A stretch of 64,000 bases of DNA. Origin: Couchioplanes caeruleus. GTDB lineage: Bacteria; Actinomycetota; Actinomycetes; Mycobacteriales; Micromonosporaceae. Shown here one piece after another: positions 3,139 through 51,377 of the stretch (position 1 is the first letter of the stretch; each line of letters begins with the position of its first letter). Under the pieces are notes generated by a model. The model was not told where the DNA came from. It did no database searches and was given only the letters and a program-made list of their open reading frames with translations. The stretch lies in the NCBI RefSeq assembly GCF_023499255.1, contig NZ_CP092183.1, positions 2,487,501 to 2,551,500 on the forward strand, written 5' to 3'. The translations under genes were made by a program, and so were the position numbers.

Positions 3139-4860
<1,722 letters not shown>

Positions 4861-35157: not shown

Positions 35158-36132
35158 TCAGGGCGCGCCCGTTGCTGCTTTGTGAAAGCGGTCGGCCAGG
35201 TGGGCGAAGGCGTCGGTGAGCTCCGGCGGCCCGACGACCTCGATGTCGGCGTCGTAGCGGGCGAAGGCGGCCGCCAGGGCCGGCCAGGACCACGAGCCGA
35301 GGGTGAGCCGGCAGCGGCCAGGGCCGGCCTCCTCGACGATGCCGTCGCGGGTGTACGTCGCGATCGTGGCGGGCGGCGCGCCGAGGACCACGGTGCCCCG
35401 GCAGGGCCAGGTGCCCGAGGCGTCGGCGGAGCCGCGGAAGACGCCGGTGACGTACGCGGCGACGTCCCCGCCGGGCAGTTCCCGCGGCGTGAAGCGGGGA
35501 CCGTTGGGGGTGCGCAGCCGCAGCCGGTCGGCGCGGAACGTACGCCAGTCCGCGCGGTCCAGGTCGAAGGCGATGAGGTACCAGCGCCCGTCCCACACGA
35601 CCACGTGATGGGGTTCGGCGCGGCGCGGGGGCCCGTCCACGGCGTCGCCGTAGTCGAAGCGCACGGTCTCCCGGGCGTGTACGGCGGAGCTGAGCGCCAC
35701 GAGCACGTCACCGTCGACGGGCGTGGCCGGCCGGGTGGTGGGCCGTTCGACGGCGGTGACCCGTACGGCGTCGATGCGGTGGCGCAGCCGGGACGGAAGG
35801 ACCTGCCGTACGGTGGCCAGCGCGCGGGTGGCGTCCTCGGCGAGGCCCGTGCCGGCGGTGGTGGCGGCGATCTGCAGGGCCACGGTGAGGGCGACGGCCT
35901 GGTCGTCGTCGAACAGCAGCGGCGGCAGCTCGGTGCCGGCCCGCAGCCGGTAGCCGCCGTCGGGCCCCTTGACCGCGGCGATCGGGTAGCCCAGCTCGCG
36001 CAGCCGGTCCACGTCGCGGCGTACGGTGCGCAGGCTGATCTCGAGGCGCTCGGCGAGCAGCGTGCCGGGCCAGTCCCGCCGGCTCTGCAGCAGCGACAGC
36101 AGAGCCAGCAGGCGGGCGGACGTCTTCGGCAT
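35158..36132 (-). CDS. WYL-domain transcriptional regulator
   Basis: A 324-residue regulator. N-terminal HTH_11/DeoR-like winged helix (ARLLALLSLLQSRRDWPGT, LEISLRTVRRDVDRLRELGY), then a WYL domain with the hallmark WYLIAFDLDRADWRTFRADR (here WYL at about 195), and the C-terminal WCX extension. Such proteins sense small molecules or nucleic-acid ligands. ATG 36132 has a CAGAAT box 7 nt upstream. A long inverted repeat at 36151-36177 lies directly upstream and is probably its autoregulatory operator. Confidence 0.88.
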   Translation of the reverse strand: MPKTSARLLALLSLLQSRRDWPGTLLAERLEISLRTVRRDVDRLRELGYPIAAVKGPDGGYRLRAGTELPPLLFDDDQAVALTVALQIAATTAGTGLAEDATRALATVRQVLPSRLRHRIDAVRVTAVERPTTRPATPVDGDVLVALSSAVHARETVRFDYGDAVDGPPRRAEPHHVVVWDGRWYLIAFDLDRADWRTFRADRLRLRTPNGPRFTPRELPGGDVAAYVTGVFRGSADASGTWPCRGTVVLGAPPATIATYTRDGIVEEAGPGRCRLTLGSWSWPALAAAFARYDADIEVVGPPELTDAFAHLADRFHKAATGAP

Positions 36133-36150
36133 GACGGCGATTCTGCCCGC

Positions 36151-36177
36151 GGTAGGTGTCAGTTCCTGGCACCTACC
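36151..36177. promoter_or_regulatory. 27-bp inverted repeat upstream of WYL gene
   Basis: Arms GGTAGGTGTCAG and CTGGCACCTACC around TTC, with one mismatch. Its position 19-45 nt before the start suits an operator for the WYL protein. It also follows the kinase gene stop by 4 nt, but that gene runs towards it on the same strand, so terminator function cannot be excluded. Confidence 0.6.
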
Positions 36178-36180
36178 GCG

Positions 36181-38250
36181 TCAGGGTGTGGGTTTCGGCG
36201 GCTGGGGGCCGCACAACGCCCGGATCGCGCCGAGCAGCGTGGAACGGGTGAACGGCTTCTCCAGCAGCATGCTGTTGGCGTCCAGGTGCAGCTGGGGTCC
36301 GAGGGAGGCCGCGGTGTAGCCGGACATGTAGAGGACCGGCAGGTCCGGGCGGTGCGTCCGCAGCGCCGACGCGAGTTCCGGCCCGGTCATGGTCGGCATC
36401 ACCACGTCGGTGATCAGCAGGTCGGGGTGTGCGCCCGCGGCCACCTGGCTGACCGCGGTGAGCGCGTCCGTGGCCACCGTGATCTCGTATCCGGCCGGTT
36501 CGATGAGGCGCTGCACGAGCTGGGCCACCTCCGGCTGGTCCTCGACGATGAGGACCCGGCCGATGACCGCCGGGGTGACGCGCCGGTCCACCGCGGACGC
36601 GGGGCGTTCCTCGGCCGCCGGCAGGTACAGGTGGACCGTGGTGCCCATGCGCGGCTGCGACTCCAGCGTGATGTGGCCGCCGAGGCCCTGCACGATACCG
36701 GCGGCCGTGGCCAGGCCCAGGCCGGCCGCGGTGGGCCGGGTGGTGAAGAACGGCTCGAGCGCCCGCCGGCGGGTCTCGTCGCTCATGCCCACGCCGGTGT
36801 CCTGGATGACCAGGTGCACGCAGCGGCCGGCCGGGGCGCCCTCGGTGAGCTGGCCGGGCTCCACCACCTCGTTGGTGGCGGCCACGCGCAGCATGCCGCC
36901 GTGCAGCATCGCGTCGCGGGCGTTGGCGGCCAGGTTCACCAGCGCCTGCTCCAGCGGGCCGCGCTCCGCGCGGACCGGCCAGACGTCCGGGCCGAAGGCC
37001 AGGTCGAGACCGATGCGCTCGCCGAGGGTCCGGCTGAACAGGCTCTGGACGTCGGTGAGCAGGTCCGGGATGGGGATGATCTCCGGCCGGTTGCCTTCGG
37101 TACGCCCGAAGGCGAGCAGCTGATGGGTCAGGGTCCGCCCGGTGGCGACCGCCTGCAGGATGTCCTGGGCCATCTGGTGCTGCGGGCTTCCCTCGGCGGT
37201 CGTCGTCGCGATCATGTCGGCGGAGCCGGCGACCACGGTCATGAGGTTGTTGAAGTCGTGCGAGATGCCGCCGATCAGCTGGCCCATGCTGTCGAGCCGG
37301 CGCAGGTGGTCGAGCTGGCGCTTGAGGCCCTTGGCGTCGATGTGGTCGGTGGTGTCGGTGACCATGCAGAGCACGCCGCGGTGCCGCCCGCCGTCCTCGA
37401 GGGGCATCATGCTCATCCGTACGCTGCGCCGGGAGCCGTCGGCGCGCAGCAGGCTGGTGGCGCCCACGGTGGAACGCCCCGCCTTGCACTCGGCCAGCCG
37501 CCGGGTCAGGTCCGCCCGGCCGTGCTCGTCGAGGAAGCCGCGCAGGGAGACGCCGACGAGCTGGGCGCGGGGCAGGCCGAGCACCACCCCGATGGGCTCG
37601 TTGGCGTACGTCGCGACGCCGGTCTCGTCGAGCTGCAGCACCCCCTCGGGGATGGTCTCGAGCACCCGGCGGTAGCGCTCCTCGCTGGCCCGCAGCCGTT
37701 CCGTGGCCCGCGCCGAGGAGAGCGCCAGCGACAGCTCGCCGGCGATGTCGCGGGCCAGCTCCACCTCGGCGGGCGAGTAGATGGTGCCGGGCGTGGCGCG
37801 GGTCAGGGCCAGGTATCCGGCGTACGTGTTGTCGACGATGACCGGGCACAGCACGGCGGCGTGCACCGGCGGCGTGGGCGTGCCCGGGTCCACGTACGCG
37901 GCGTGCCGTGGCTGGGGCAGCTCGGTGAGCGGCTCGGTGCCCTCAGCGGCCAGCACCACCGGGCGCCGGCTCGCGGCGAGGCTGGTGGAGAAGTCGTCGT
38001 CGGGCAGCTCGCCGGCGCGGTCGAGCAGCTGCGCGTACGGCTCCGCCAGGCTGTCGTCGGCGTGGTGGTACGTGATCGCGTCGTAGCGCCCGTCGTCGCG
38101 CAGCAGCTGCACGCCGGCGCCGTCGCCGAGCATGTCCGCGGCGGCCCGCGCGGCGGTCGAGCACACCTTCCCGGTGTCTTCCGAGACGCGGCTCAGCGCC
38201 AGCGCCAGGTCGGCCAGTGCGTACCGGAGGGGATAAGCCATGACACCCAT
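36181..38250 (-). CDS. hybrid histidine kinase (GAF-PAS-HisKA-HATPase-REC)
   Basis: A 689-residue cytoplasmic kinase. ATG 38250 is chosen because GATAGT lies 6 nt upstream; ATG 38241 is an alternative. Order: GAF about 20-170 (VHAAVLCPVIVDNTYAGYLAL), PAS about 185-300 (GVLQLDETGVATYAN), HisKA with phosphoacceptor GGISHDFNNLM, HATPase_c (VNLAANARDAM, DTGVGM, GLGLATAAGIV) and a C-terminal receiver with LLITDVVMPTM and the Lys in LLEKPF. It has no membrane segment. Such soluble hybrids respond to internal ligands. No DNA-binding response regulator is adjacent; the WYL regulator is the next gene downstream on the same strand. Confidence 0.88.
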   Translation of the reverse strand: MGVMAYPLRYALADLALALSRVSEDTGKVCSTAARAAADMLGDGAGVQLLRDDGRYDAITYHHADDSLAEPYAQLLDRAGELPDDDFSTSLAASRRPVVLAAEGTEPLTELPQPRHAAYVDPGTPTPPVHAAVLCPVIVDNTYAGYLALTRATPGTIYSPAEVELARDIAGELSLALSSARATERLRASEERYRRVLETIPEGVLQLDETGVATYANEPIGVVLGLPRAQLVGVSLRGFLDEHGRADLTRRLAECKAGRSTVGATSLLRADGSRRSVRMSMMPLEDGGRHRGVLCMVTDTTDHIDAKGLKRQLDHLRRLDSMGQLIGGISHDFNNLMTVVAGSADMIATTTAEGSPQHQMAQDILQAVATGRTLTHQLLAFGRTEGNRPEIIPIPDLLTDVQSLFSRTLGERIGLDLAFGPDVWPVRAERGPLEQALVNLAANARDAMLHGGMLRVAATNEVVEPGQLTEGAPAGRCVHLVIQDTGVGMSDETRRRALEPFFTTRPTAAGLGLATAAGIVQGLGGHITLESQPRMGTTVHLYLPAAEERPASAVDRRVTPAVIGRVLIVEDQPEVAQLVQRLIEPAGYEITVATDALTAVSQVAAGAHPDLLITDVVMPTMTGPELASALRTHRPDLPVLYMSGYTAASLGPQLHLDANSMLLEKPFTRSTLLGAIRALCGPQPPKPTP

Positions 38251-38256
38251 GTGGCA

Positions 38257-38262
38257 ACTATC
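38257..38262 (-). promoter_or_regulatory. -10 box GATAGT of hybrid kinase
   Basis: On the minus strand GATAGT lies 6 nt before ATG 38250, which supports that start and a leaderless message. Confidence 0.45.
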
Positions 38263-38520
38263 GGCGTAACTGCCGGGCGGTGCGGGCGGTTCACAAGGAA
38301 TGCAACCGTCCGGCCGAGCCCGATCCCAGCGGTCCCACCCGCCCGATCCTTCACTTACGACGTTCCCGCAGCTCAGAGCCACTTCTATGGGCTCGAACGA
38401 GGCGGCGGCCCGGTGGTGACGGGTTGGCGCGGACAACGTCCTGTCGTGCGAACTCCGACGCGAAGAGTTGCGCATTGATACGGACAAACAGCATCATTCC
38501 GGTCGGCCGAGTCGATTGCC

Positions 38521-40287
<1,767 letters not shown>

Positions 40288-40302
40288 GGCTGGGTCCGCA
40301 CG

Positions 40303-40608
40303 GTGCGCAGGACACTGGCCGCCGGCCTCGCCGTCGCCGCCGGGGTGCTGGGCCCGGGCGTGGTGTGGACCCTCTCCACGGACGCCGCGGCGGTGCCGTC
40401 GTACCACCCGGCGGCTCGGCCCGGCGAAGACCCCGCGCATCGTGACGGCGCCGCTCGCCGACATCGGACGCGTGAAATAAGTTCGCGCACTCTGGCGTTC
40501 CGGCCTACCGTGATCGCCATGTTCGCGCCCGGTCTGCAGCTGCCCGCGGGGTTCGCCCCGCCGGTGGCTCCCGCGTGCGTGCTCCGCGGCGCCGATACCC
40601 GAATCTGA
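40303..40608 (+). CDS. doubtful small ORF with signal-like N-terminus
   Basis: A 101-codon frame from GTG 40303. Its first 30 residues look like a signal or membrane anchor ([18 protein letters not shown]). The remainder is low-complexity Arg/Ala/Pro and includes the 29-codon leader-like ORF (ATG 40519) in the same frame. It may be an unused relic; only the leader part has promoter support. Confidence 0.25.
40506..40511 (+). promoter_or_regulatory. -10 box TACCGT upstream of leader ORF and EF-Tu
   Basis: TACCGT ends 7 nt before ATG 40519, with a weak TTCGCG hexamer 18 nt further upstream. This would start a leaderless transcript that runs through the hairpin into the EF-Tu gene. Confidence 0.45.
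40519..40608 (+). CDS. candidate leader peptide (29 aa) before EF-Tu
   Basis: [20 protein letters not shown] plus nine more residues, ending TGA at 40606-40608. The predicted transcription start coincides with its ATG, and the stop codon touches the base of the hairpin at 40608-40649. The arrangement (leaderless short ORF, hairpin, resistance-type or paralogous gene) is that of ribosome-dependent attenuators. Peptide function is inference. Confidence 0.4.
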
Positions 40609-40649
40609 CCCTTCCCCTGCCGCAAGTCCGGCACCACCGGGGGAAGGGT
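40608..40649 (+). terminator. hairpin in EF-Tu leader (attenuator candidate)
   Basis: Ten-base-pair outer stem ACCCTTCCCC with GGGGAAGGGT, enclosing a small GCCG/CGGC hairpin. It sits 64 nt before the EF-Tu ATG. No T-run follows (GGTTCGTCC), so it may terminate weakly or act through folding. Confidence 0.5.
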
Positions 40650-40712
40650 GGTTCGTCCCTGCGCGGGTTCCGGCACCCCTTTCCGTTTCTCGCATCCAGT
40701 GAGGACATTCCC

Positions 40713-41900
40713 ATGGCCAAGAGCCAGTTCGTCCGTACCAAGCCGCACCTGAACATCGGCACGATGGGGCACGTCGACCACGGCAAGACCACCCTGACCG
40801 CCGCCATCACGAAGGTCCTCGCCGACCGCGACCCGGCAACCAACCGGTACGTCGCGTTCGACGGGATCGACAGGTCCCCGGAGGAGCACGACCGGGGCAT
40901 CACGATCACGATCTCGCACGTCGAGTACGAGACCGCGCACCGCCACTACGCCCACGTCGACATGCCGGGGCACGCCGACTACGTGAAGAACATGATCACG
41001 GGGGCGGCGCAGGTGGACGGCGCGATCCTCGTCGTCTCGGCGCAGGACGGCGCCATGCCGCAGACCCGGGAGCACGTGCTGCTCGCCCGCCGGGTCGGGG
41101 TGCCGTACCTGGTGGTGGCGCTCAACAAGAGCGACGCCGTCGAGGACGAGGAGCTGCTCGAGCTCGTGGAGCTGGAGGTCCGCGAGCTGCTCACCGAGTA
41201 CGGCTTCCCCGGCGACGAGGTCCCGGTCGTACGGGTCAGCGCGCTCAAGGCCCTCGAGGGCGACCCGCGCTGGACCCGGTCGGTCGTGGAGCTGCTCGAC
41301 GCGGTCGACGCGTACGTGCCGGTCCCGCCGCGGGAGCTCGGCGAGCCGTTCCTGATGCCGATCGAGAACGTGCTCACCATCAGCGGCCGTGGCACGGTCG
41401 TGACCGGCAAGGTGGAGCGCGGCACGCTGCGCGCCGGCGAGCCGGTCGAGGTCGTCGGTCTCGGGCCGGCGATCGCCACGGTCGCCATCGGCCTGGAGAC
41501 CTTCGGCAAGTCGCTGCCGGAGGCCGAGGCCGGCGACAACGCGGCCGTGCTGCTGCGGGGCATCAAGCGCGATCAGGTGCAGCGCGGGCAGGTCGTGGCG
41601 CTGCCGGGCAGTGTCACGGGGCACCGCAGCTTCCGGGCCCACATGTACGCGCTGACGAAGGATGAGGGTGGGCGGCACACGCCGTTCGTGGCGAACTACC
41701 GCCCGCAGTTCTTCTTCCGCACCACGGACGTGTCCGGCGCGATCGACCTCGGTGACCTGCCGATGGTGATGCCGGGCGACACCGTGGACCTGACCGTGCA
41801 CCTGGGCAAGGAGGTGCCGATGGAGGCCGGTCTGGGCTTCGCGGTCCGCGAGGGTGGCCGTACGGTCGCCGCCGGCACCGTGACCGAGGTGCTCGACTAG
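40713..41900 (+). CDS. tuf: divergent elongation factor Tu paralogue
   Basis: A 395-residue EF-Tu with a complete three-domain layout. G-motifs: GHVDHGKT (P-loop), DMPGH, NKSD (NKxD) and SALKAL. It differs from housekeeping EF-Tu at many conserved places: switch I reads [14 protein letters not shown] rather than DxAPEExxRGITIN, domain 3 has [19 protein letters not shown], and the C-terminus ends [13 protein letters not shown]. It is not next to rpsL, rpsG or fusA, as expected of a second copy. Streptomyces carry such extra genes (tuf2/tuf3), linked to EF-Tu antibiotic resistance or the stringent response. GAGG lies upstream of ATG 40713. A possible attenuator precedes it. Confidence 0.88.
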
Positions 41901-41901
41901 C

Positions 41902-41938
41902 AGGGAAGGGCCGCTCCGTGAGGGGCGGCCCTTTCCCT
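41902..41938. terminator. bidirectional terminator between tuf and PLDc_N gene
   Basis: Arms AGGGAAGGGCCGCTCC and GGGGCGGCCCTTTCCCT pair with one bulge and one wobble around a 4-nt loop. It serves both convergent genes. Confidence 0.85.
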
Positions 41939-42339
41939 TACTGCTGCTCGTCCCGCTTGCGCAGCTCGTCCTCGCGCCGGCGCAGGTCGGCTTCCCACCG
42001 CTTCATCATCGACTCGTCCTCCTTGAGCGACTGGGCCAGGTTGCGCAGGAATTCGGGGTCGTCGTCCGGTGCCACCGGTCCCTTGCGGGGGCGCTCGGCT
42101 TCGGGGAAGCCGCTGCCCGGGCGCCACATCTCGCCGTTGCTCATGCGGACCGCGCGCGGCGGGCGACCGGCCACGAACCAGGCGATCGCGCCGATCGGGG
42201 AGAACAGCAGGATGATGAAGACCCACGCGACGCGCGGCAGGGCGCGGATCGCGTACTCCTCGGCGGAGAGGCAGTCGATCAGGGCGATCACCAGCAGCGC
42301 CAGGTCGAGGAGCATGAAGAGCGAGTAGAGGCGGATCAT
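41938..42339 (-). CDS. PLDc_N-domain membrane protein
   Basis: A 133-residue protein. ATG 42339 begins two close membrane helices (YSLFMLLDLALLVIALIDCL, and VAWVFIILLFSPIGAIAWFV). The second includes the FSPIGAIAWF signature of the PLD-nuclease N-terminal domain, followed by GRPP. The charged C-terminus (about 95-133, Glu/Arg/Lys) can form a cytoplasmic coiled coil. These small proteins are common in actinomycetes; function is unknown and no phospholipase domain is attached. Confidence 0.8.
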   Translation of the reverse strand: MIRLYSLFMLLDLALLVIALIDCLSAEEYAIRALPRVAWVFIILLFSPIGAIAWFVAGRPPRAVRMSNGEMWRPGSGFPEAERPRKGPVAPDDDPEFLRNLAQSLKEDESMMKRWEADLRRREDELRKRDEQQ

Positions 42340-42589
42340 GGCGGAGATGGTCGCAGAATCCCCGGCGCTGCGTGGTCCCACGAACGGCCGAGGCGCGGGC
42401 GCCGGGCGCGTCGCGGCCGGGCCGGCGCGGTAGGCCGGCCGGGTCCCCCGTACACCTCGTGCTCCCGGCCGGCGCCACGCACTGGAGAAACGCACGGGAG
42501 CCGGTTTTCGCTGCACCGGCGACTGTCGGCTAAGCGACACTCACGCACGCAGCGATATCGATGACAATCGGCGTCTGCCCGGCGAGGGG

Positions 42590-43117
42590 GTGGGGCACTT
42601 GGACGCCGAGGCCGAGGGAGCCGACGAGTTCGCGCGTACCCGGCTGGACGCGTTGCGGCGCTTCGCGTACCTCATCTGCGGCAGCGCGGCGGAGGCCGAC
42701 GACCTCGCCCAGCTCGCGGTGGTCGAGGTGTGGCGGCGCTGGTCCTCGGTGCGGGTGGACCCGGAGGCCTACGCCCGGCGCATCATCGTCACCCGCAACG
42801 TGAGCCGGTGGCGGCGCTGGCGCCGCGAGGTGCCCGCCGACATCGCCGACCGCGACGGCGACGACCCGGCGCGCGGCCGCGTGACCGACCCGGTGCTGTG
42901 GGAGGCGCTGCACGCCCTCGGCAAGCCCGAACGCACCGTCGTCGTGCTGCACGTGCTCTACCGGTACACCTTCGACGAGATCGCCGCGATGTCCGGTGAG
43001 CCGCGGGGCACGGTGTCGAGCCGGTATTCGCGTGCGCTGCGGACCCTGCGTGACCGGCTGCGGGGGACCGGGGACGCGACCGCGGAGGACAGCTGGACGA
43101 TGAGGTACGCGCTGTGA
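42590..43117 (+). CDS. SigE-family RNA polymerase sigma factor
   Basis: A 175-residue ECF sigma factor of the actinobacterial SigE/SigL (M-like) family. Region 2 (about 15-80) has RRFAYLICGSAAEADDLAQL and region 4 (about 110-165) has RTVVVLHVLYRYTFDEIAAM with the recognition helix PRGTVSSRYSRALR. GTG 42590 follows GCGAGGGG. It overlaps the next gene by 4 nt (GTGA), so sigma and its membrane partner are co-translated. Binding by that partner is likely but inferred. Confidence 0.88.
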   Translation: MGHLDAEAEGADEFARTRLDALRRFAYLICGSAAEADDLAQLAVVEVWRRWSSVRVDPEAYARRIIVTRNVSRWRRWRREVPADIADRDGDDPARGRVTDPVLWEALHALGKPERTVVVLHVLYRYTFDEIAAMSGEPRGTVSSRYSRALRTLRDRLRGTGDATAEDSWTMRYAL

Positions 43118-44508
43118 ACGCCGACCGCGACCTCACCGACCGGCTCGCCGCCACGCTCGCCGAAGCGGGGCAGGCGCTGCCGTACGCACCGGCCGGCACC
43201 GTAGCCGGCGTACGGCGCCGCTTCGTGCGACGCCGGCGGCTGCGGGCGGTCGCAGCCGCGGTGGCCGCCCTGCTCGCCCTGACGGTGTCCTCGATCGCGC
43301 TGCGCCCGATGGCGGCGCCGACCGCCACCCCGGGCGGCCACCTGCGCATGTGGGCCCTCACCGACGTGGAGCGCAACCCCGGGCTGCGCGGCTGCCTCGA
43401 TGACGCCGGCGTCCCGGTCGAGCTGACCACGTTCGGCAACGACACGTACCAGCAGCTCATGGCCGCCCCGGGCGCGCCGGGGCAGCGGCCCGACGTCTTC
43501 GAGAACTGGGGCGGCGCGGACCTCGGCCGGCAGGCGCACGCCGGGACGGTGGCCGATCTCACCGGTGTCGCCGGTGACGCGGCGGATCTCTTCCTGCCCG
43601 GGGTCATGGCCGGCGGCCAGGTCGGCGGCCGGCAGTACGGGCTGCCCGTCACCGGCACCCAGCCGATCGTGCTCTTCTACGACAAACGCCTGTTCGCCGA
43701 GGCCCACCTGAGCCCGCCCCGCACGTACGCGGAGCTGCTCAGCGCCGTGGACACCTTCCGGGCCCGCAAGGTCACGCCCATCGCGCTGGCCGGCGCCGCG
43801 CGCTGGCCGGCGCTGATGTACCTGATGTACCTGACCGACCGGCTCGGCGGTCCGCAGGTCTTCGCCGACATCGCGGCCGGCCGGCCGGGCGCGTGGCGGC
43901 ACCCGGCGGTCCGGGAGGCCGCGCGGCTCACCCAGCAGCTGGTCCGCCGCGGCGCCTTCGGCGAGCCCGGCGACGCCCTGAACCTCGAGACGGGCGCGGC
44001 CACCGGGATGCTCACCCGCGGCGAGGCGGCCATGCAGCTCATGGGCAGCTGGGAGTACGGCGCCCAGGCCGCCGACGATCCCGCGTTCGCCGCCACCGGG
44101 CTCGGCTGGACACCGTTCCCCTCGGTGGCCGGCGGTGCCGGTGACCCGGCGGACCTCGTCGGGGTGCCGGCCAACTACCTCTCCGTCGACGCCGGCAGCC
44201 CGTACCGTGCCGAGGCTGCGCAGTTCGTCGCCCGGACCGTCACCTCCGACGCGTTCCTCGACGGGCTGCTCGCCGCCGGCGAGGTGCCGGCGGTCCGGGA
44301 CCTGGAGCCCCGGCTGGCCGGGCACCCGCACGCGGAGTTCGCCCGCTTCGTCCATCGCCTCGCCGTGGCCGCGCCGAGTTTCACGCTGGCCTGGGACCAG
44401 GCCCTGCCACGGCCGGTCGCGTCCGTCCTGCTGGACCGGACGCGGCAGCTCTTCCAGCTCACGATCACACCCGATGAGTTCGTGGCCGCCATGGCCGCGA
44501 CCGCCTGA
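43114..44508 (+). CDS. membrane-anchored extracellular sugar-binding protein, possible anti-sigma sensor
   Basis: A 464-residue protein starting at GTG 43114 within the sigma gene stop. Residues 1-43 are a charged, helix-forming cytoplasmic segment (DLTDRLAATLAEAGQALPY, then RRRFVRRRRLR). One membrane helix spans about 44-64. The outer part (about 75-464) is an ABC-type family-1 solute-binding domain: PDVFENWGGADL, GLPVTGTQPIVLFYDKRLF, TYAELLSAVDTFRARKVTPIAL, GEAAMQLMGSWEYG and FLDGLLAAGEVPAVRDL. There is no lipobox, no permease gene nearby, and the short cytoplasmic tail sits where anti-sigma segments occur in this sigma family. It may relay sugar binding to the sigma factor (inference). Confidence 0.75.
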   Translation: MNADRDLTDRLAATLAEAGQALPYAPAGTVAGVRRRFVRRRRLRAVAAAVAALLALTVSSIALRPMAAPTATPGGHLRMWALTDVERNPGLRGCLDDAGVPVELTTFGNDTYQQLMAAPGAPGQRPDVFENWGGADLGRQAHAGTVADLTGVAGDAADLFLPGVMAGGQVGGRQYGLPVTGTQPIVLFYDKRLFAEAHLSPPRTYAELLSAVDTFRARKVTPIALAGAARWPALMYLMYLTDRLGGPQVFADIAAGRPGAWRHPAVREAARLTQQLVRRGAFGEPGDALNLETGAATGMLTRGEAAMQLMGSWEYGAQAADDPAFAATGLGWTPFPSVAGGAGDPADLVGVPANYLSVDAGSPYRAEAAQFVARTVTSDAFLDGLLAAGEVPAVRDLEPRLAGHPHAEFARFVHRLAVAAPSFTLAWDQALPRPVASVLLDRTRQLFQLTITPDEFVAAMAATA

Positions 44509-44526
44509 CCCGGCCCGACCCGAGGG

Positions 44527-46143
44527 ATGGTTCCCGTGCCGATGAAACGCGCCCTGATCGCCGTCACCACCACCGTCGCCCTCGTCCTCGCGCTGGTCGG
44601 CCCGGCGCGCGGGAGCCGCCCTCCCGGTACGCCCGGCGCCGAGCGTGCCGCCGTGCCGGCCACGGACTGCACCGCCCATGTGGGCTACCACCAGGACGCC
44701 GACCTGCCCGGGTACGCGGTGCCCGGTGCGGGCGGGAGCCGGGTCTGCGTACCGTTCACTTGGATCGACTGGGCGCCGGCCGGCTATCGCGGGGACTACC
44801 GGGTGCGGGAGTTCTCCTTCGCCGCTGCCGAGCGCCGGCTGGACGCGTGCAAGGCCGATCCGGCGTGCACGGCACTGTCCGATGTGGCCGGTTACCGGCC
44901 CGCCGAGTTCCGCAGCACCGGCGAGATCGTCGGCTTCGGCAAGGTCGATCCGTACGCCTCGAACCTCGACCTGACCCGGATCCGCCGGCCGGGCTTCTTC
45001 GCGCGGGCGCCGTACGCGGAGCGCATCGCCGCTGCCGAGCCGCAGGCGTGGACGGTGGAGTTCACGGTGCCGGCCGAGCCGTACGAGGTGATCAACCGCG
45101 GGATCACCACGCCGGTGCGGCTGCGGGGGTGGTACCTGCGCGGGGACGGCGTACGCGACCCGAGTGGGCGGCGGACCCGGGCGCTGGCCGTGCTGCTCGG
45201 CGGCCGGACCATCGAGACGACCGCGGTGCAGGACCCCGCCGACCCGCTGTACCTGCCCGGCGCTGCCGGCGGCCACGACGGCGTGGCGTACCCCTCGCGG
45301 GGCACCGAGAAGTGGGGCGCGCGGCAGTGGCGTGAGTATCTGGACGCGTTGCGCCGCGCCGGGTTCGACGTGCTCACCGTGGACAAGCGTGGTCACGGGA
45401 TCTCCGGCGGCCACAGCGCCGACAACACGCTCCAGCAGGGCCTGGACATGTTGCGCATGGTGGACGCGCTGGCGGACGGCGACGGGGTGCGCGCGCTGGG
45501 CCCGGACCGGGTCACCCGTACCGGCCGGGACGCCGTGCGGCGGATGACCGGAGCGGCCGACGCCCGCACCATGCCGATCCTGCTGGGCGGGGCGAGCCAG
45601 GGCGCGTACGCCACCCAGTGGGCGATGGACGCCAACCTGCACCGCTGGTGCGCGCTGGACACCCCCGGCCGCCCGTGTTCGCCGCCGTGGGGCCACCGCA
45701 ACATCCGCGGTGCACTGCTGCTGTCCACGTTGTGGGGCATGCCGTTCGGCGACCCGGGCGACCTCGTCTACACGGCGGCGCACGCGGAGGTCAACCACTC
45801 CATCTACACGCCGACGTCCGAGCCGCTGGCCGGCATCGGCGACTGGCCGGCCGTGTTCATCGGCAAGGGGATCTGGGACGAGTACGAGGGCCCGCTGGGT
45901 GTGTTCAGCGCGTACCAGCGTTCCGCGGGCCGGGCCGAGCTTGTGCTCGTCCGGGGGCCGCACTCGGAGAACGAGCACGGCACGGCCAACGTCGCCGTCA
46001 TGCGTGACCGGCTCGTCCGGTTCGCGGTGCGCGCGGTCACCGGGACCCGCGTGGCCGGCCCCCGCTACGCCACGTTGCGCGACGCGATCGCGGCGAGCCC
46101 GCCGACGTGGGAGCCGTCGACCACGCCGACGCCGGTGGGCTGA
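44527..46143 (+). CDS. secreted alpha/beta hydrolase
   Basis: A 538-residue exported enzyme lying 18 nt after the sensor gene and probably in the same operon. The start is ATG 44527 or, five codons on, ATG 44542; the CGAGGG site is close to the first. The signal peptide is about 10-30. The N-terminal about 150 residues are specific to this type (Cys-rich, VCVPFTWIDWAP). The alpha/beta-hydrolase core has TVDKRGHGISGG, the nucleophile elbow GGASQGA and a late PHSENEHG with the likely His. Substrate unknown; esterase, lipase or peptidase are all possible. It is a plausible output gene of the sigma factor. Confidence 0.7.
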   Translation: MVPVPMKRALIAVTTTVALVLALVGPARGSRPPGTPGAERAAVPATDCTAHVGYHQDADLPGYAVPGAGGSRVCVPFTWIDWAPAGYRGDYRVREFSFAAAERRLDACKADPACTALSDVAGYRPAEFRSTGEIVGFGKVDPYASNLDLTRIRRPGFFARAPYAERIAAAEPQAWTVEFTVPAEPYEVINRGITTPVRLRGWYLRGDGVRDPSGRRTRALAVLLGGRTIETTAVQDPADPLYLPGAAGGHDGVAYPSRGTEKWGARQWREYLDALRRAGFDVLTVDKRGHGISGGHSADNTLQQGLDMLRMVDALADGDGVRALGPDRVTRTGRDAVRRMTGAADARTMPILLGGASQGAYATQWAMDANLHRWCALDTPGRPCSPPWGHRNIRGALLLSTLWGMPFGDPGDLVYTAAHAEVNHSIYTPTSEPLAGIGDWPAVFIGKGIWDEYEGPLGVFSAYQRSAGRAELVLVRGPHSENEHGTANVAVMRDRLVRFAVRAVTGTRVAGPRYATLRDAIAASPPTWEPSTTPTPVG

Positions 46144-46155
46144 GCGCCGGGCGGG

Positions 46156-46710
46156 TCAGCGGCCGGCCGCGGCGTCGTACCGGCGCCGCAGGTCGGCCAT
46201 CTCCCCGTCGGAGAGCGCCTCCTTCTGCGCGAGCTCGGCGTACCTGCCCGGGAACATCTGCTTCAGCCGGTCGATGTACGGCACGCCGTCGGTGGCCTCG
46301 ACCACCTGGATGCCCGGCGGGTCGGTGGACATGTCGAGGATGACCGGGCCGGCCAGCTTGACCGCCACGTCCCAGGGGCGGCCCTGCTCGGCGACGCCGC
46401 ACAGGTGGAAGCCGTAGACGGTCCGTACGTCGGCGAGCGCGCTCGCCCCGGCCGGCTCGTACCCGTAGACCCGGACGCCGCAGATCACCGCGGGCTTCGC
46501 GTCCTCGGCGCCGGCGGGCTGGTGCCCGGCGTGGTGGTGCTGCCCCGGGTCCGACCGCTCGAGCGTCGTGCGCATCCGGTCGGTGATCTGGCCGGTCAGG
46601 TCCGTACCGTGCGCGTCCGAGCCCGCCGTGGTGGCCAGCGCGACCGCGCCGGCCGTCGCTGCCACGACCAGCCCCGCCGCCCACCTGGTGCGCGTGCGGT
46701 TCCACGTCAT
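46156..46710 (-). CDS. exported small protein of unknown function
   Basis: A 184-residue protein with an N-terminal membrane helix or uncleaved signal (WAAGLVVAATAGAVALATTAG), a His-rich stretch (DPGQHHHAGHQ) that could bind metal, and a Cys pair (AVICGVRV and FHLCGVAE). The C-terminus is helical and charged (GEMADLRRRYDAAAGR). No family recognised. A CebR-like palindrome lies 32 nt upstream, which would put it in a cellulose-responsive regulon. Confidence 0.65.
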   Translation of the reverse strand: MTWNRTRTRWAAGLVVAATAGAVALATTAGSDAHGTDLTGQITDRMRTTLERSDPGQHHHAGHQPAGAEDAKPAVICGVRVYGYEPAGASALADVRTVYGFHLCGVAEQGRPWDVAVKLAGPVILDMSTDPPGIQVVEATDGVPYIDRLKQMFPGRYAELAQKEALSDGEMADLRRRYDAAAGR

Positions 46711-46741
46711 GAGCTTCTCCGTCGTCGGCGACCGGGAGCCG

Positions 46742-46755
46742 TGGGAGCGCTCCCG
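46742..46755. promoter_or_regulatory. CebR-like operator TGGGAGCGCTCCCG
   Basis: Matches the 14-bp CebR box in 13 positions; the inner 12 bp are a perfect palindrome. It is 32 bp before the ATG of the small exported protein. Confidence 0.6.
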
Positions 46756-46785
46756 GTCGCAGCATTTCATCAATATGTCTCGATA

Positions 46786-46980
46786 TCAACCAGCCGCCTT
46801 CGACGCGTACGCCGTGGTGTACGTCTTGCTCAGGTCGACCTGGTCCTTCTTGCCCCGCACGTTCGGGGAGAACTGGCTGAGCACCTCCAGCACGTTCGCC
46901 GCCCCCTCGGGCTTCATCAGGCCGTCGCCGTTGAACATGCCGACGCTGTCGTGGATCGCCTGCACGTCGCCGTGCTGGAG
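46786..46980 (-). pseudogene. C-terminal remnant of an ABC substrate-binding protein
   Basis: The minus strand encodes the last about 60 residues of an NMT1/SsuA-type solute-binding protein: HDSVGMFNGDGLMKPEGAAN, VLEVLSQFSPNV and the typical end VDLSKTYTTAY. Upstream (to the right) homology stops abruptly where plus-strand kinase-like sequence begins. No start, signal peptide or the other about 300 residues remain. Confidence 0.6.
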
Positions 46981-47028
46981 GCCCGGCTGCCCGGCGCCCT
47001 GCATCCCGCGCCGGCGGGTGTGCCGTGA
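46972..47028 (+). pseudogene. 3' remnant of a sensor histidine kinase
   Basis: The plus strand just before the response regulator reads VLEARLPGALHPAPAGVP and stops at TGA 47026-47028. The piece EARLPG is typical of the final strand of a histidine kinase ATPase domain. The stop overlaps the response regulator GTG, as kinase-regulator pairs usually do. Everything upstream of about 46972 is missing. Confidence 0.45.
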
Positions 47029-47681
47029 TCCGGGTGCTGGTGGTGGAGGACGACTTCCGCGTCGCGAAGGTGCACGTCGGCTTCACCCAGCGGGTCGACG
47101 GCTTCACCGTGACGGGTGCGGCCCGGACCGCCGCCGAGGCCCGCTCGATGCTCGCCGCCGGGGGGATCGATCTCGTGCTGCTCGACACGTTCCTGCCCGA
47201 CGAGTCCGGGCTGGACCTGCTGCGCGAGCTGACCGCCGACGCCATCATGCTCACCGCCGCCTGCGACGCCGCCACGGTCCGCACGGCGTACGCCCGTGGC
47301 GCCCTCAACTTCCTCGTCAAGCCGTTCACCGCCGAGCAGCTCGCGGACCGGCTGGTGGCGTACCGGCACTACCGCTCGGTGCTGTCCGGCGACCGTACGC
47401 TCAGCCAGGACGAGATCGACCGGTGCTGGCGCGTGCTGCACGAGGGCGACCGCCCGGCCGCGCCGAAGGGCCAGTCCGCGGTGACGCTGCGCCTGGTGAG
47501 CGAGGCGTTGCGTTCCGCCGGTACGCCGCGCACGGCCGCCGACGTCGCCGATGAGCTGGGAATTTCCCGGGCGACCGCCCAGCGCTACCTGGCGGCCCTG
47601 GCCCGTGACGGGGCGGCGGAGATGCGGCTGCGGTACGGCGCCACCGGCCGCCCCGAGCACCGGTACCGCTGGGCGGGGTGA
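47025..47681 (+). CDS. CitB/DcuR-type response regulator
   Basis: A 218-residue regulator: receiver domain about 1-120 (VVEDDFRVAKVHVGF, phosphoacceptor in LVLLDTFLPDESG, Lys in FLVKPF) followed by a linker and a winged helix (TAADVADELGISRATAQRYL). This is the CitB family, which partners PAS-type membrane kinases sensing di- or tricarboxylates. GTG 47025 overlaps the kinase remnant. With the kinase gone it is an orphan and may be inert. Confidence 0.85.
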   Translation: MIRVLVVEDDFRVAKVHVGFTQRVDGFTVTGAARTAAEARSMLAAGGIDLVLLDTFLPDESGLDLLRELTADAIMLTAACDAATVRTAYARGALNFLVKPFTAEQLADRLVAYRHYRSVLSGDRTLSQDEIDRCWRVLHEGDRPAAPKGQSAVTLRLVSEALRSAGTPRTAADVADELGISRATAQRYLAALARDGAAEMRLRYGATGRPEHRYRWAG

Positions 47682-47722
47682 CGGGCCGGCGGGGTGGGGA
47701 CTCCCCGCCGGACCGCCGCGCG

Positions 47723-48529
47723 TCAGCGCAACGCCGAGGTCAGCGCCGGCAGGTAGCCGTACCGGTAGCCGTTGCCGGTGGGGTGGAAGGAATCGGTCGG
47801 GGGCAGCACCGTCAGGCCATGCAGCCACGGGCTGGCGCCGCAGATCCCGTGCCCGGCGAACTCATCGGTGACGTCGGCCCACGTCGCGCCGGCGGCCCGG
47901 GACCGCTCGGCGATGACCCGGTTGAGCTCGACCGCGCCCTTGTTGATGGACTTGCGCTTGGGGATGCTCATGCCGGCGAAGCCGCAGCTCGGTGCGGTCT
48001 CGTCGAAGAGGATGGGGTAGCCGAGCACGACGATCCGCGCGTTCGGGGCCTTGCGCTGGATGTCGCGGTACGTCGCGTCGAGCTTGCCCGGGATGTCGTC
48101 GGAGAGCGCCTTGATCGCGATGTCGACGGTGGCCGCGCAGGCCGCGTCGCTGACCAGCGTGCAGGTGATGATCGTGGGAGCGAACCCGACGTCGTTGCCG
48201 CCGATCGTCAGCGTCACGAGATCGGTGCCGCTGGAGAGCGCGGAGAGCTGGGTGGCCCGCAGCGTGTCGGTGGTGGCCCCGCTGCAGGCGGCCGAGCGGT
48301 ACGACTTCGGGTCGTTCGCGGCGTCCCACAGGCCGGGGTAGCCGTTGGGGCTGCGCAGGCAGAGTCCGCTCTGCCCGGAGGCGCCGACGCCGGACGAGTA
48401 GGAGTCGCCCAGGGCGACGTAGTCCCACTCCGAGGGGGATGACGGGGCGGCGGCCGCGGGGGCCGCCGTGAGGAGGGTCAGCAGGGTCGAGAAGACGAAG
48501 CAGGCGAGGACGGTGGTACGTCTGCTCAT
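47723..48529 (-). CDS. secreted SGNH/GDSL lipase-esterase
   Basis: A 268-residue exported hydrolase of the Streptomyces-lipase SGNH type. Signal peptide 1-28 (AAAA-P). Block I is ALGDSYSSG (Ser43), block III IGGNDVGF, and the Asp/His block is PPTDSFHPTGNGY. Six Cys at the usual places would form three disulfides (GLCLRS, SAACSG, TCTLVS, AACAAT, PSCGFA, GICGAS). Likely acts on lipid or acetyl esters outside the cell. Upstream lie an AGCGCT palindrome and two TTAC-N6-GTAA sites. Confidence 0.9.
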   Translation of the reverse strand: MSRRTTVLACFVFSTLLTLLTAAPAAAAPSSPSEWDYVALGDSYSSGVGASGQSGLCLRSPNGYPGLWDAANDPKSYRSAACSGATTDTLRATQLSALSSGTDLVTLTIGGNDVGFAPTIITCTLVSDAACAATVDIAIKALSDDIPGKLDATYRDIQRKAPNARIVVLGYPILFDETAPSCGFAGMSIPKRKSINKGAVELNRVIAERSRAAGATWADVTDEFAGHGICGASPWLHGLTVLPPTDSFHPTGNGYRYGYLPALTSALR

Positions 48530-48561
48530 CGGGGTGGCCTCCGGTCCGCGGGGGATGGGGG

Positions 48562-48575
48562 CCGGAGCGCTCCGG
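48562..48575. promoter_or_regulatory. palindrome CCGGAGCGCTCCGG
   Basis: A perfect 14-bp palindrome centred on AGCGCT, 33 bp before the SGNH hydrolase start. It keeps the GGAGCGCTCC core of CebR boxes but the outer bases differ. Confidence 0.5.
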
Positions 48576-48641
48576 TTACCGAACAGTAAGTCAAGGGTCC
48601 AGGGAAAGAAACACAGTGACTTTCCGGTTACCTCGTAGTAA
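48576..48641. promoter_or_regulatory. two TTACC-N4-AGTAA sites
   Basis: TTACCGAACAGTAA at 48576-48589 and TTACCTCGTAGTAA at 48628-48641 are both TTAC-N6-GTAA inverted repeats, each preceded by CCGG, 52 bp apart. This shape is typical of TetR-family operators, for instance in fatty-acid genes. The first abuts the AGCGCT palindrome. Confidence 0.45.
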
Positions 48642-48697
48642 CATCCGTCGATGTGACCTGCATCTATGCCATGCAGTCATGTTCCATGTGCGGAGCG

Positions 48698-48928
48698 CTA
48701 TGACGTGGTCGGCAGCTCGCAGCTGATCAGAACCCGCGTTTCCGTGCCGGGCATCGTGTCGATGTGGAGCCCGCCGCAGATCTGCCCCGCCACCCAGATG
48801 CTGTGCCCGCCGATGTGTCCCGCCCGGCGGCGCAGCGTCTCGTCCAGCCGCTCCGACGCGATGCCGGGGCCGTCGTCCCTCACCTGGCACCACAGGGTCG
48901 AGCCCTCCCGCCACAGCCGGGGCAGCGG
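48698..48928 (-). pseudogene. C-terminal fragment of a HATPase_c regulator
   Basis: The last about 76 residues of an RsbW-like or MEDS-type ATPase: WCQVRDDGPGI (G1 box), then GGHSIWVAGQICGGLHI and PGTETRVLISCEL. The N-box part expected upstream is absent; to the right the frame is only the antisense of another fragment. No start codon or ribosome-binding site. Confidence 0.6.
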
Positions 48929-49017
48929 GTCCGGCTCATCGACATGGCCGGGTCCGGTCGCAACCCGGGCCGGATCATCCCGGTGGTGCTCCGCGCCGTC
49001 GCCGGTGCCCGCGGGCG

Positions 49018-49290
49018 CGGTCACCGACGCCTTCGACGCGGACACCTTCCACGCCTGCGCCGCATCGTCGTCGACCGTGCCCGGTCGGGTGGTACGCCGC
49101 CGGAGCGCCTGAACGACGTCGCGGTCGCGGTGAGCGAGCCGGCCACCAACGCGGTGGTCCACGGCGGCGGAGCGGGCCTGCTGCGCTCGTGGACCGACAG
49201 CCGGTACTTCGTCTGCGAGATCGTCAGCACGGGACGGACCGCCGACGTCCTCGCCGGGCGCCGTCCGGTGCCGCCGACCGAGGTGAGCGG
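49018..49290 (+). pseudogene. internal fragment of a HATPase_c regulator, frameshifted
   Basis: VTDAFDADTFHA in one frame continues as RLRRIVVDRARSGGTPPERL, VAVAVSEPATNAVVHGG (N box) and YFVCEIVSTGRTADVLAGRR in the next. The shift lies near 49050 and adding one C (TTCCACCGCCTG) would repair it. The fragment stops after VPPTEVSG, before the G2 box, and has no N-terminal domain. Confidence 0.6.
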
Positions 49291-49353
49291 ATGGTGCCGG
49301 CGCCGCGCTGACAACGCACAGCCGTTTGTCAGCGTGTGCACAGCCCCGCGGAT

Positions 49354-49359
49354 TAGCGT
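49354..49359 (+). promoter_or_regulatory. -10 box TAGCGT, leaderless start
   Basis: TAGCGT ends 7 nt before ATG 49367. Confidence 0.4.
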
Positions 49360-49366
49360 CGGTGGC

Positions 49367-49753
49367 ATGGACGAGAACAGGGCCCGCCGGGTGGTCGAGA
49401 CGCTCCGCGCTCGCAACGTCTTCGCGCACGTGAAGCTGCCGCACGCCGGCATCACGCAGTACGGCATCCGCGTCGTCCTGCCCGACGGCCGTGAGGCGAT
49501 CTGGGACAACGACGGCACCGCGGGACTCGAGGCGCAGATCATGCGCAACGGGGTGCTCGTCGGCTTCGTCCCGTCGATCCCCGGCTCCGAGAACTTCACC
49601 GACGAGCAGATCATCGAAGCCGTCGCCGCCGCGGACTACGACCAGCCCATCGGCCGGTCCCGTCCCACCCGTCCGGCGCGGGCCGAGCGCGTCCCCGCGG
49701 CCCCCCGCCCGGCCGGACTGGCCGAGCGGCTACGCCGGACCTTCCGCGACTGA
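49367..49753 (+). CDS. hypothetical protein
   Basis: A 128-residue soluble protein. The first about 85 residues form a compact alpha/beta unit (RARRVVETLRARNVFAHVKL, YGIRVVLPDGREAIWDNDG, GVLVGFVPSIPGSE). The tail is basic and Pro/Arg-rich (about 100-128). A leaderless start at ATG 49367 is supported by the -10 box. No family recognised. Its 3' end overlaps the 3' end of the DUF6510 gene by 24 bp. Confidence 0.65.
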   Translation: MDENRARRVVETLRARNVFAHVKLPHAGITQYGIRVVLPDGREAIWDNDGTAGLEAQIMRNGVLVGFVPSIPGSENFTDEQIIEAVAAADYDQPIGRSRPTRPARAERVPAAPRPAGLAERLRRTFRD

Positions 49754-50023
49754 CTCCTCCGGCAGCGCGATCCGCAGCGACACCGCGCCGCGCACGTCGA
49801 GCCAGGCCCGCCCCGGCGCGCGGACCAGCCGCAGGACCACGTCCTCGCAGCCCGGGCAGCGGGCCACCAGCCCGGGCGCCGGGCCCCACACCAGCAGGGC
49901 GGCCACGGCGCTCGGCCGCCCGCACCCGGCGCAGGTCGCCACCGCCTCGGTCAGGTCGACCGCGAAGATCTCCCGCAGGTCGCCGGCCATGGCGTTGCCG
50001 TCGAGCTCGAAACCGGTGGTCAT
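49730..50023 (-). CDS. DUF6510 family protein
   Basis: A 97-residue soluble protein with two CxxC pairs, TCAGCG and RCPGCE, which should bind one zinc ion in a ribbon. It resembles DUF6510 proteins. ATG 50023 overlaps the stop of the reductase gene (ATGA), so it is the last gene of a three-gene operon with a molybdopterin oxidoreductase and an FAD reductase, a grouping often seen in actinomycetes. Its function is unknown; a scaffold or maturation role would fit. Confidence 0.7.
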   Translation of the reverse strand: MTTGFELDGNAMAGDLREIFAVDLTEAVATCAGCGRPSAVAALLVWGPAPGLVARCPGCEDVVLRLVRAPGRAWLDVRGAVSLRIALPEESVAEGPA

Positions 50024-50769
50024 GCCGTACCCCCGAATCGCTCGGTCCTGATCGTGGACGCGTCATGCCCCAGCGCGACGAGGATGTCCGCGGCCGCCTC
50101 CACGAACGACGTGGGCCCGCAGACGAAGACGTCGGGCGCGAAGTCCGGCGGCCAGCCGTGCGTGTTCAGTGTCGCGACGCCGATCCGGCCCGGCGGCTGC
50201 GGCCAGTCGTCCGGCGTCTTGCGGGTGTAGGCGATGTGCACGTCCAGGCCCGGGTCGTCGCGGACCCGCCGGGCCAGCTCGGCCGCGTAGAGGGTGTCCT
50301 GCGGGGTGCGCACGGAGTGGACCAGCCGGAACGGCTGGCGCCCGCGGGCGTCGCCGCGCGCCCGGATCATCGCCATGAGCGGGACGACGCCCGAGCCGCC
50401 GGCCACCAGCAGCACCGGCGCCGGCGTGCCGCGCCAGACGAACCATCCGCCGACCGGGCCGCGCAGCTCGAGTTGCTGACCGGGCTCCAGCACGTCCGTC
50501 AGGTACGACGACACTTCGCCGTCCGCGACCCGCTGGACCGTCAGCTCCACCCGGCCGCCGTCACGCCACGCGGACGCGATCGAGTAGCTGCGCTGGGCCG
50601 AATAGCCGTCCGGGGCGGTCAGGCGGACGTCGACGTGCTGGCCCGGCAGGTGACCGGGCCACTGCGGGATGTCGAGGACCAGGGTGCGCGCCGACGGCGT
50701 CTCCCACCGGGCCTCGGCGACGGTGGCGACCCGCCAGATCAATCGCCCTGGTACCGCTGCTCGCGCCAT
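50020..50769 (-). CDS. FAD/NAD(P)-binding ferredoxin-reductase-like protein
   Basis: A 249-residue flavoprotein of the FNR family. FAD domain (about 20-110) with RSYSIAS as the flavin-binding RxYS motif, then an NAD(P) domain with LLVAGGSGVVPLMAM and the C-terminal VFVCGPTSFVEAA. It has no iron-sulfur domain, so a separate acceptor is needed. The start ATG 50769 lies 31 nt inside the upstream oxidoreductase gene; later starts are possible. It is likely to pass electrons between NAD(P)H and the adjacent molybdoenzyme. Confidence 0.82.
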   Translation of the reverse strand: MARAAVPGRLIWRVATVAEARWETPSARTLVLDIPQWPGHLPGQHVDVRLTAPDGYSAQRSYSIASAWRDGGRVELTVQRVADGEVSSYLTDVLEPGQQLELRGPVGGWFVWRGTPAPVLLVAGGSGVVPLMAMIRARGDARGRQPFRLVHSVRTPQDTLYAAELARRVRDDPGLDVHIAYTRKTPDDWPQPPGRIGVATLNTHGWPPDFAPDVFVCGPTSFVEAAADILVALGHDASTIRTERFGGTA

Positions 50770-51338
50770 GGGTCCCCGTACATGTGGTAGCCGGCCTCTT
50801 CCCAGAAGCCGGGCTCGTCCTGCTGGAGCATCTCGATGCCGTTGACCCACTTCGCGGACTTCCAGAAGTACAGCGCGGGGACGACGAGGCGGGCCGGGCC
50901 GCCGTGCTCCGGGTGCAGCGGCTCACCGTCGAAGGTGTGCGCGATCCACGCCTTGCCGTCGAGCAGGTCCTCCAGCGGGACGTTCGTGGTGTAGCCGCCG
51001 TAGCTGTGCACCATCGTGAAGTCCGCGGTGGTCTCCACGTTCTCGAAGAGCGCGTCCAGCGGGACGCCGCGCCACGTCGTGCCCAGTTTGGACCACTTCG
51101 TGACGCAGTGGATGTCGACCGTGAAGTCCTCCTGCGGCAGCGCGTTCAGCTCATCCCACGACCAGCTCGTCCTCGCGCCGGTCTCGTCGGTGATGGCGAA
51201 CGACCACCGCTCGAGCGGGACCCGCGGCGTCGGCCCCGCCGAGAGCACCGGGAAGTCGTGCGTGAGGTACTGCCCGGGCGGCAGGTCGGGGCGCGAGGAG
51301 CGCCGCCGCCCGCCGAAGCCGGGAGAGATGATGCTCAT
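50739..51338 (-). CDS. sulfite-oxidase-like molybdopterin oxidoreductase
   Basis: A 199-residue Oxidored_molyb (SUOX/YedY-like) protein consisting only of the cofactor domain. The molybdenum ligand is Cys78 in DIHCVTKWS; the pterin-binding GTTWRGVPL and the HPEHGGPARLVVP segment follow. No signal peptide or dimerisation domain, so it is likely cytoplasmic, unlike MsrP. First gene of the operon with the FNR-like reductase and DUF6510 protein. Substrate unknown. Confidence 0.85.
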   Translation of the reverse strand: MSIISPGFGGRRRSSRPDLPPGQYLTHDFPVLSAGPTPRVPLERWSFAITDETGARTSWSWDELNALPQEDFTVDIHCVTKWSKLGTTWRGVPLDALFENVETTADFTMVHSYGGYTTNVPLEDLLDGKAWIAHTFDGEPLHPEHGGPARLVVPALYFWKSAKWVNGIEMLQQDEPGFWEEAGYHMYGDPWREQRYQGD

Positions 51339-51377
51339 GCCCAGCAGTAAACCCCACGATCACGTGACGCGACAGGC

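Follow-up and report, generated by a model that had tools for sequence, protein, structure and literature searches.

A putative membrane-tethered xylo-oligosaccharide sensor paired with an ECF sigma factor in Couchioplanes caeruleus

In the 64,000-nucleotide stretch of Couchioplanes caeruleus DNA analysed here (the window), an ECF sigma factor gene overlaps a gene for a solute-binding protein that carries a membrane helix in place of a lipid anchor. It is probable, at roughly 60%, that the second product is a membrane-tethered xylo-oligosaccharide sensor controlling its own sigma factor, the two forming a one-component signalling pair. Judged from sequence comparison, the pairing of sigma factor and sensor goes beyond chance, since it recurs in 14 of 354 family genomes and residues 9-44 of the sensor are conserved. 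The genes and elements involved are the following.

42510..42514, + strand: left box GCTGC, which mirrors the right GCAGC box and is exact in three of the 14 pair loci
42524..42553, + strand: composite motif TGTCGG-N5-YGACA-N9-GCAGC, a candidate promoter or operator 45 nt before the sigma start, defined by upstream alignments
42599..43117, + strand: ECF sigma factor gene, 172 aa from TTG, defined by Pfam, NCBIfam and the alignment of relatives
43114..44508, + strand: membrane-tethered solute-binding protein, the proposed sensor and sigma regulator, GTG start, 464 aa
43114..43245, + strand: predicted cytoplasmic part, residues 1-44, combining a conserved helix with an Arg-rich end; proposed to bind the sigma factor
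43246..43299, + strand: membrane helix, residues 45-62, from sequence and model
43342..44499, + strand: predicted extracellular domain of the family-1 solute-binding type, residues 77-462, with xylobiose-binding BxlE as its closest relative
44542..46143, + strand: alpha/beta hydrolase with a signal-peptide-like start, a possible output; third gene of a probable operon, 33 nt behind the sensor

Sigma factor and tethered partner

The sigma open reading frame spans 42590-43117 and encodes 175 aa when counted from GTG 42590, the start used in an earlier note on this DNA. TTG 42599 is probably the true start, since of the four closest relatives three have an aligned ATG. The protein contains sigma-70 region 2 (PF04542, 1.9e-08) and region 4 (PF04545, 4.1e-10), with no other sigma domain in Pfam, and belongs to the ECF sigma factors. 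Its score against the NCBIfam SigE family (TIGR02983) is 107.3 bits, under the curated cutoff of 141.55, so the name "SigE-type" given to it by the earlier note serves as a loose label. The orthologue in Nucisporomicrobium flavum (L069, 5537-6247) is 236 aa long against 172 here, being extended at the C-terminus by RLRGTE-like repeats, possibly a repeat expansion. In a metagenomic protein (P0192), the front of the sigma factor is fused directly to parts of the hydrolase without the sensor gene, by deletion or assembly error.

The second gene overlaps the sigma gene by 4 nt, as had been reported and as is read directly in the open reading frames (43117 against 43114). Its product matches SBP_bac_1 (PF01547, 3e-25) and SBP_bac_8 (PF13416, 2.3e-19). 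The AlphaFold2 model (mean pLDDT 86.2, pTM 0.78) has a helix at residues 3-21, a long helix at 29-62 that combines the Arg-rich stretch with the membrane span, and a binding-protein fold at 77-462; Pfam, the model and its fold matches together assign the product to the family-1 solute-binding fold. The earlier note's plan of a complete outer binding domain joined by one membrane helix to a basic segment in the cytoplasm is thereby confirmed, with a segment of 44 residues instead of 43. By the positive-inside rule, the N-terminus would lie inside the cell. The reported lack of a lipobox also holds, both in direct reading of the window protein and in its near-identical relative P0001 (94% identical).

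No known anti-sigma domain (zinc finger, RskA or RsgI_N) is detected in the second product, for which Pfam at E<=0.001 gives only PF01547 and PF13416, and 44 residues is short for such a domain. Residues 9-44 are conserved about as much as the binding domain (0.69 and 0.71, with 0.58 for the helix and 0.43 for the linker); the segment is thus constrained within the family. Four of its residues, L15, A18, P23 and R36, are invariant across 43 aligned membrane-type rows.

The position of the gene is that of the membrane partner in such sigma systems, as the first reading had assumed. This genome has 85 further SigE-like matches, and at the 31 sigma loci that score best the next gene is on the same strand in 29 cases. 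Its early membrane helix starts at residue 33-50 in 20 loci and at residue 90-104 in five others, and its overlap with the sigma gene is exactly 4 nt in 14. Since the 33-50 helix and the 4-nt overlap are this frequent, the binding protein fills the usual second-gene slot with the usual layout. For most partners with an early membrane helix behind SigE-like sigma factors, no signal is known; here signal, sensor, promoter and output are testable together, because solved xylobiose complexes exist for the class of the outer domain.

When the segment is compared by hhalign, for possible homology, with the N-termini of the second genes at 20 of the 31 loci, start Met included, the match has 82% probability and a score of 26.5 over only 8 columns at the very start (control maxima 0.6% and 10.3). 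Without the start residue the values are 45% and 22.3; lipoprotein N-termini score 19.5, and none of 30 shuffles exceeds 19.2. The window holds a second SigE-type pair on the - strand: behind a sigma gene (52106-52627), whose product exceeds the TIGR02983 cutoff with 155.6 bits, a gene overlapping it by 4 nt (51378-52109) encodes a one-helix protein whose N-terminus is basic.

Relation to importer proteins and the ligand pocket

A protein search gives 113 relatives among 7994 candidates scored. The plan of a basic stretch of ~40-65 residues, one helix and a binding domain is shared by 42 of them, six of which match a loose lipobox pattern inside the helix, while 63 have a lipobox-like cysteine near the N-terminus; the eight left out are fragments without an N-terminus or starts without the pattern. 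The tree includes 54 of the 63 lipobox relatives, the other nine being very distant (P0105-P0113). This quick tree, built from 99 binding domains, groups all 43 membrane-type rows in one clade (SH-aLRT 99), which under midpoint rooting lies among 56 lipoproteins. Since the membrane type forms one clade among lipoproteins, a single conversion of an importer protein into the membrane type is the simplest reading of the tree.

The other 29 SBP_bac_1 genes of the genome have a lipobox-like N-terminus in 27 cases, and a similar sigma is absent from the 1.5-2.8 kb fetched around the start of each. One binding-protein gene without a lipobox (L163, G000:C1:4029087-4029962) is apparently anchored by an N-terminal helix and has no similar sigma nearby.

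The first five PDB sequence matches of the second product, and likewise the first seven fold matches, are binding proteins for xylo-oligosaccharides or xylan utilisation. Among solved proteins, BxlE of Streptomyces thermoviolaceus (PDB 3vxb and 3vxc), the xylobiose-binding protein of an ABC importer, resembles the sensor in fold and in the residues Trp204 and Trp286; it is 38% identical to the binding domain, with a TM-score of 0.90 on the target. The BxlE site residues Trp204, Tyr264 and Trp286 (PMC8233162) align with W231, L291 and W313, so that two of the three ligand aromatics are kept, whereas Tyr264 is replaced by Leu. Among the 43 membrane-type rows, W231 is kept in all and W313 in 42; position 291 is Tyr in 37 and Leu in the window protein and two others. 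N131 and N354 are kept in 22 and 29 of these rows, against 51 and 52 of 52 lipoproteins. The outer domain is therefore a putative xylo-oligosaccharide receptor, and since Tyr264 has become Leu291 and N131 and N354 are looser than in lipoproteins, ligand specificity may have shifted. BxlE-like control proteins differ from the sensor in being lipoproteins with permease genes behind them in six of seven cases, whereas the sensor extends into the cytoplasm, spans the membrane by a helix and is partnered with a sigma factor.

Linkage, composite motif and downstream genes

At E<=1e-35, with ten candidates per genome scored, the sigma orthologue is found in 14 of the 354 family genomes, distributed over three genera, and is not found in the other 340. 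Each of the 14 has, directly behind the sigma gene, a binding protein with a membrane helix and no lipobox. By genus, five of these genomes belong to g1, seven to g61 and two to g50; among them are Nucisporomicrobium flavum, Jidongwangia harbinensis, Plantactinospora (g61) and Micromonospora (g50), the genus names being inferred from contigs and protein names in common. At NCBI, both Plantactinospora and Nucisporomicrobium are classified under Micromonosporaceae. The 14 sigma factors form one clade (SH-aLRT 100) against 32 other sigma factors, 31 of them from the genome of the window.

In the reverse direction, a binding-protein search with the Plantactinospora member as query at E<=1e-80, a threshold that more divergent membrane-type proteins would escape, gives 52 matches in 49 of the 354 genomes. 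Thirty of these matches were fetched, and the alignments of the other 22 start at query residue 18 or later and so leave the N-terminal segment out of view. Of 68 binding-protein loci fetched, the sigma gene stands beside a membrane-type protein at 21 (representing 14 genomes, as some places are included twice) and 47 have no similar sigma within their flanks, so the same 14 genomes are recovered from both sides. The survey for sigma-adjacent proteins with a membrane helix and a binding domain, proposed in the earlier note and run here within the 354 family genomes, finds 14 genomes with the pair; bacteria of other families are covered through protein searches. The concern that homologues occur mainly in importer operons applies to the wider family, which consists of ABC importer proteins, but not to the membrane-helix clade, which lies beside the sigma gene in every genome examined.

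The composite motif has a fixed spacing across the upstream alignments. Its exact form occurs once per genome in 13 of the 14 pair genomes, always at the pair locus, and with one mismatch in the remaining one (G291); it occurs in 17 of the 354 genomes, the other four being among the 340 without the pair. The reversed motif, used as a control, has 7 matches in the 354 genomes. In g1 and g50 the motif lies 40-45 nt before the sigma start (the distance in G038, where the called start is over-long, is unused), while in g61 it is not before the sigma gene but 113-119 nt before the start of a GH10 gene. The left GCTGC box is exact at three loci only: the window, G012 and G018, the last with its spacing one base longer. 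The motif is a candidate promoter of the sigma factor, perhaps a bidirectional one.

Sites away from the locus are at chance level. The looser pattern TGTCGG-N19-GCAGCRA gives 8 matches in seven of the 14 pair genomes, five of them at the locus, against 5 for the reversed control, and no motif is near the four best GH10 loci (of five GH10 matches) of the window's genome. One GH10-domain protein of that genome is encoded in the window itself (3139-4614, - strand), ~38 kb from the pair and with no motif near. At the four non-pair sites (L133-L136), no sigma gene is seen by eye among the adjoining genes; three of them (L134, L135 and L136, in g50) are at one shared, unrelated place between genes of 350-370 aa and 176-177 aa.

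A GH10-family or hydrolase gene is found behind the pair in 12 of the 14 genomes. In all seven g61 genomes, the next gene, 205-332 nt behind, belongs to a single family whose scanned member is GH10 (PF00331, 3.6e-96). In all five g1 pair genomes, the third gene follows 27-41 nt behind and encodes an alpha/beta hydrolase whose start resembles a signal peptide. The two g50 (Micromonospora) loci have neither, and share a divergent upstream protein that is beta-lactamase-like by eye. The suggestion that a secreted hydrolase is a possible output is in line with the gene order in g1 and, with GH10 as the enzyme, in g61; the g50 loci speak against it.

The window hydrolase has only a sub-cutoff Pfam match, and its best solved relative by sequence has E=0.11; of its 267 relatives, few have a Pfam domain among the 120 listed. 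Across 31 rows, Ser352 (within a G-x-S-x-G pattern) and His474 never vary, as expected for an alpha/beta hydrolase. The fold is nearest to diverse peptidases and esterases, and the 50 fold matches listed include feruloyl esterases and one acetyl xylan esterase. Whole-model TM-scores are just ~0.3, so that a xylan esterase is no more than a possible assignment. Two genes upstream of the pair is an elongation factor Tu gene (40713-41900, + strand, 395 aa).

Proposed mechanism, alternatives and known systems

The receptor may descend from the binding protein of a xylo-oligosaccharide importer. On this view the lipid anchor and the adjoining permease genes disappeared, while an N-terminal helix on the cytoplasmic side, a patch rich in Arg and a single membrane span were added. 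Outside the cell, the two-lobed domain would close on a xylan fragment, and the change on closure would pass through the single helix. Inside, the 44-residue segment most likely holds the ECF sigma factor and would free it on ligand binding; the negative sign is a guess made by analogy with other ECF systems. Free sigma factor would then transcribe from the motif-bearing promoter, the target being its own sigma-sensor-hydrolase operon in the window genome and four relatives and the adjacent GH10-family gene in Plantactinospora. The comparisons show the conserved plan, the linkage, a single clade for either partner, the pocket aromatics, the motif and the order of the genes; sigma binding, sign, ligand and promoter recognition are all parts that we infer. 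The one-component sugar sensor of the earlier note is supported in part: it agrees with the linkage in 14 of 14 genomes, the usual slot, the two pocket aromatics and the motif at the locus in 13 of 14, but the two g50 loci without an enzyme gene do not fit it. Chances are about even for the fuller version, in which a Venus-flytrap protein of an ABC importer left transport once in the Micromonosporaceae, was fused to a minimal 44-residue segment and became an anti-sigma factor that reports xylan sugar to RNA polymerase, with a secreted xylanase or hydrolase as output.

A helix-anchored transport receptor that serves permeases encoded elsewhere, the sigma factor merely transcribing its gene, is an improbable alternative. 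Its closest kin are indeed importer binding proteins, and the same genome has a related importer at 5117109 (34% identity to the second product) with two permease genes behind. However, of the two permease families followed, F2 and F4, whose scanned members are of type BPD_transp_1, neither has a member among the genes called in window 36001-52600, in line with the initial observation of no permease gene nearby. Thirteen of the 14 pair contexts (6-17 kb fetched each) contain neither family; the exception is G025, where an F2 gene lies upstream of the pair, one gene away and on the opposite strand. Six of the seven lipoprotein control loci have F4 and F2 genes directly behind and the seventh has an F4 gene ~5.5 kb off, while none of the seven contexts contains the sigma family. 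In addition, transport would not need a conserved 36-residue cytoplasmic segment, and the confinement of the sigma orthologue to pair genomes, with none in the 340 others searched, also argues against a transport receptor. Somewhat less remote, though still unlikely, is a sensor that, instead of being a simple anti-sigma factor, co-activates or localises the sigma factor, or works by having its cytoplasmic part cut free by proteolysis. The shortness of the segment and its lack of a known Pfam anti-sigma domain are consistent with this, as is the stepwise proteolysis by which the sugar-sensing RsgI anti-sigma factors are described to act (PMC12203970), but membrane partners of ECF sigma factors are described as usually negative regulators (PMC8999054).

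The motif itself might be the operator of an unrelated repressor, with another regulon for the sigma-sensor pair; of the three alternatives this is the least unlikely, though doubtful. Given the palindromic core (TGTCG-N6-CGACA), the motif would suit some other regulator's operator as well as a promoter, and in the window and G012 the GCTGC/GCAGC flanks are symmetric too. The ECF41 promoter is given as TGTCACA-n16-CGTC, with a TGTC -35 element (PMC3426412); TGTC is present in both, which favours a promoter, but the spacing to GCAGC in the motif is two bases longer. Against an operator, the exact motif is found in 13 of 14 pair genomes and only 4 of 340 others, and no gene family other than the pair is common to any two of the three genera in the fetched contexts, so that the pair alone is shared by all three.

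The kind of system preferred here, a sugar-sensing anti-sigma factor, is already known, since RsgI and ECF52 already sense sugars (PMC12203970, PMC8999054). RsgI/SigI of Clostridium thermocellum is described as a sigma factor with a protein that has its N-terminus inside, one helix and an outer sugar-binding domain (PMC12203970), and the sensor beside its sigma gene has the same layout, its orientation following from the positive-inside rule only. The outer domains of RsgI, as described there, are different, namely CBM, GH10, PA14 and the like, combined with an N-terminal anti-sigma and a periplasmic domain (PMC12203970); neither an RsgI N-terminal domain nor a SigI-type sigma factor is found here by Pfam, and the sigma factor has ECF regions. 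ECF52/ECF53 proteins such as SCO4117 of Streptomyces coelicolor also join an actinobacterial ECF sigma factor to an extracellular carbohydrate-binding part, but according to the published description sigma factor, zinc finger, membrane span and carbohydrate domain are one protein (PMC8999054), whereas here there are two genes, no zinc finger in Pfam and an ABC-type binding protein. A search of openly licensed papers turned up no case in which an ABC solute-binding protein forms the basis of an anti-sigma factor. Within that literature, the use of a whole ABC-type binding protein as the outer module, together with the lack of a known anti-sigma domain, is apparently new. If correct, the proposal would show a path from a transport protein to a transcription sensor and would offer a modular sugar-responsive switch for xylan conversion. 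An outer domain that is solute-binding-like by Foldseek is also reported for CisA, a membrane protein of the contractile injection system of Streptomyces coelicolor (PMC12237407); the cited account connects CisA with docking of the injection system, not with a sigma factor, and the domain compared there comprises residues 310-468.
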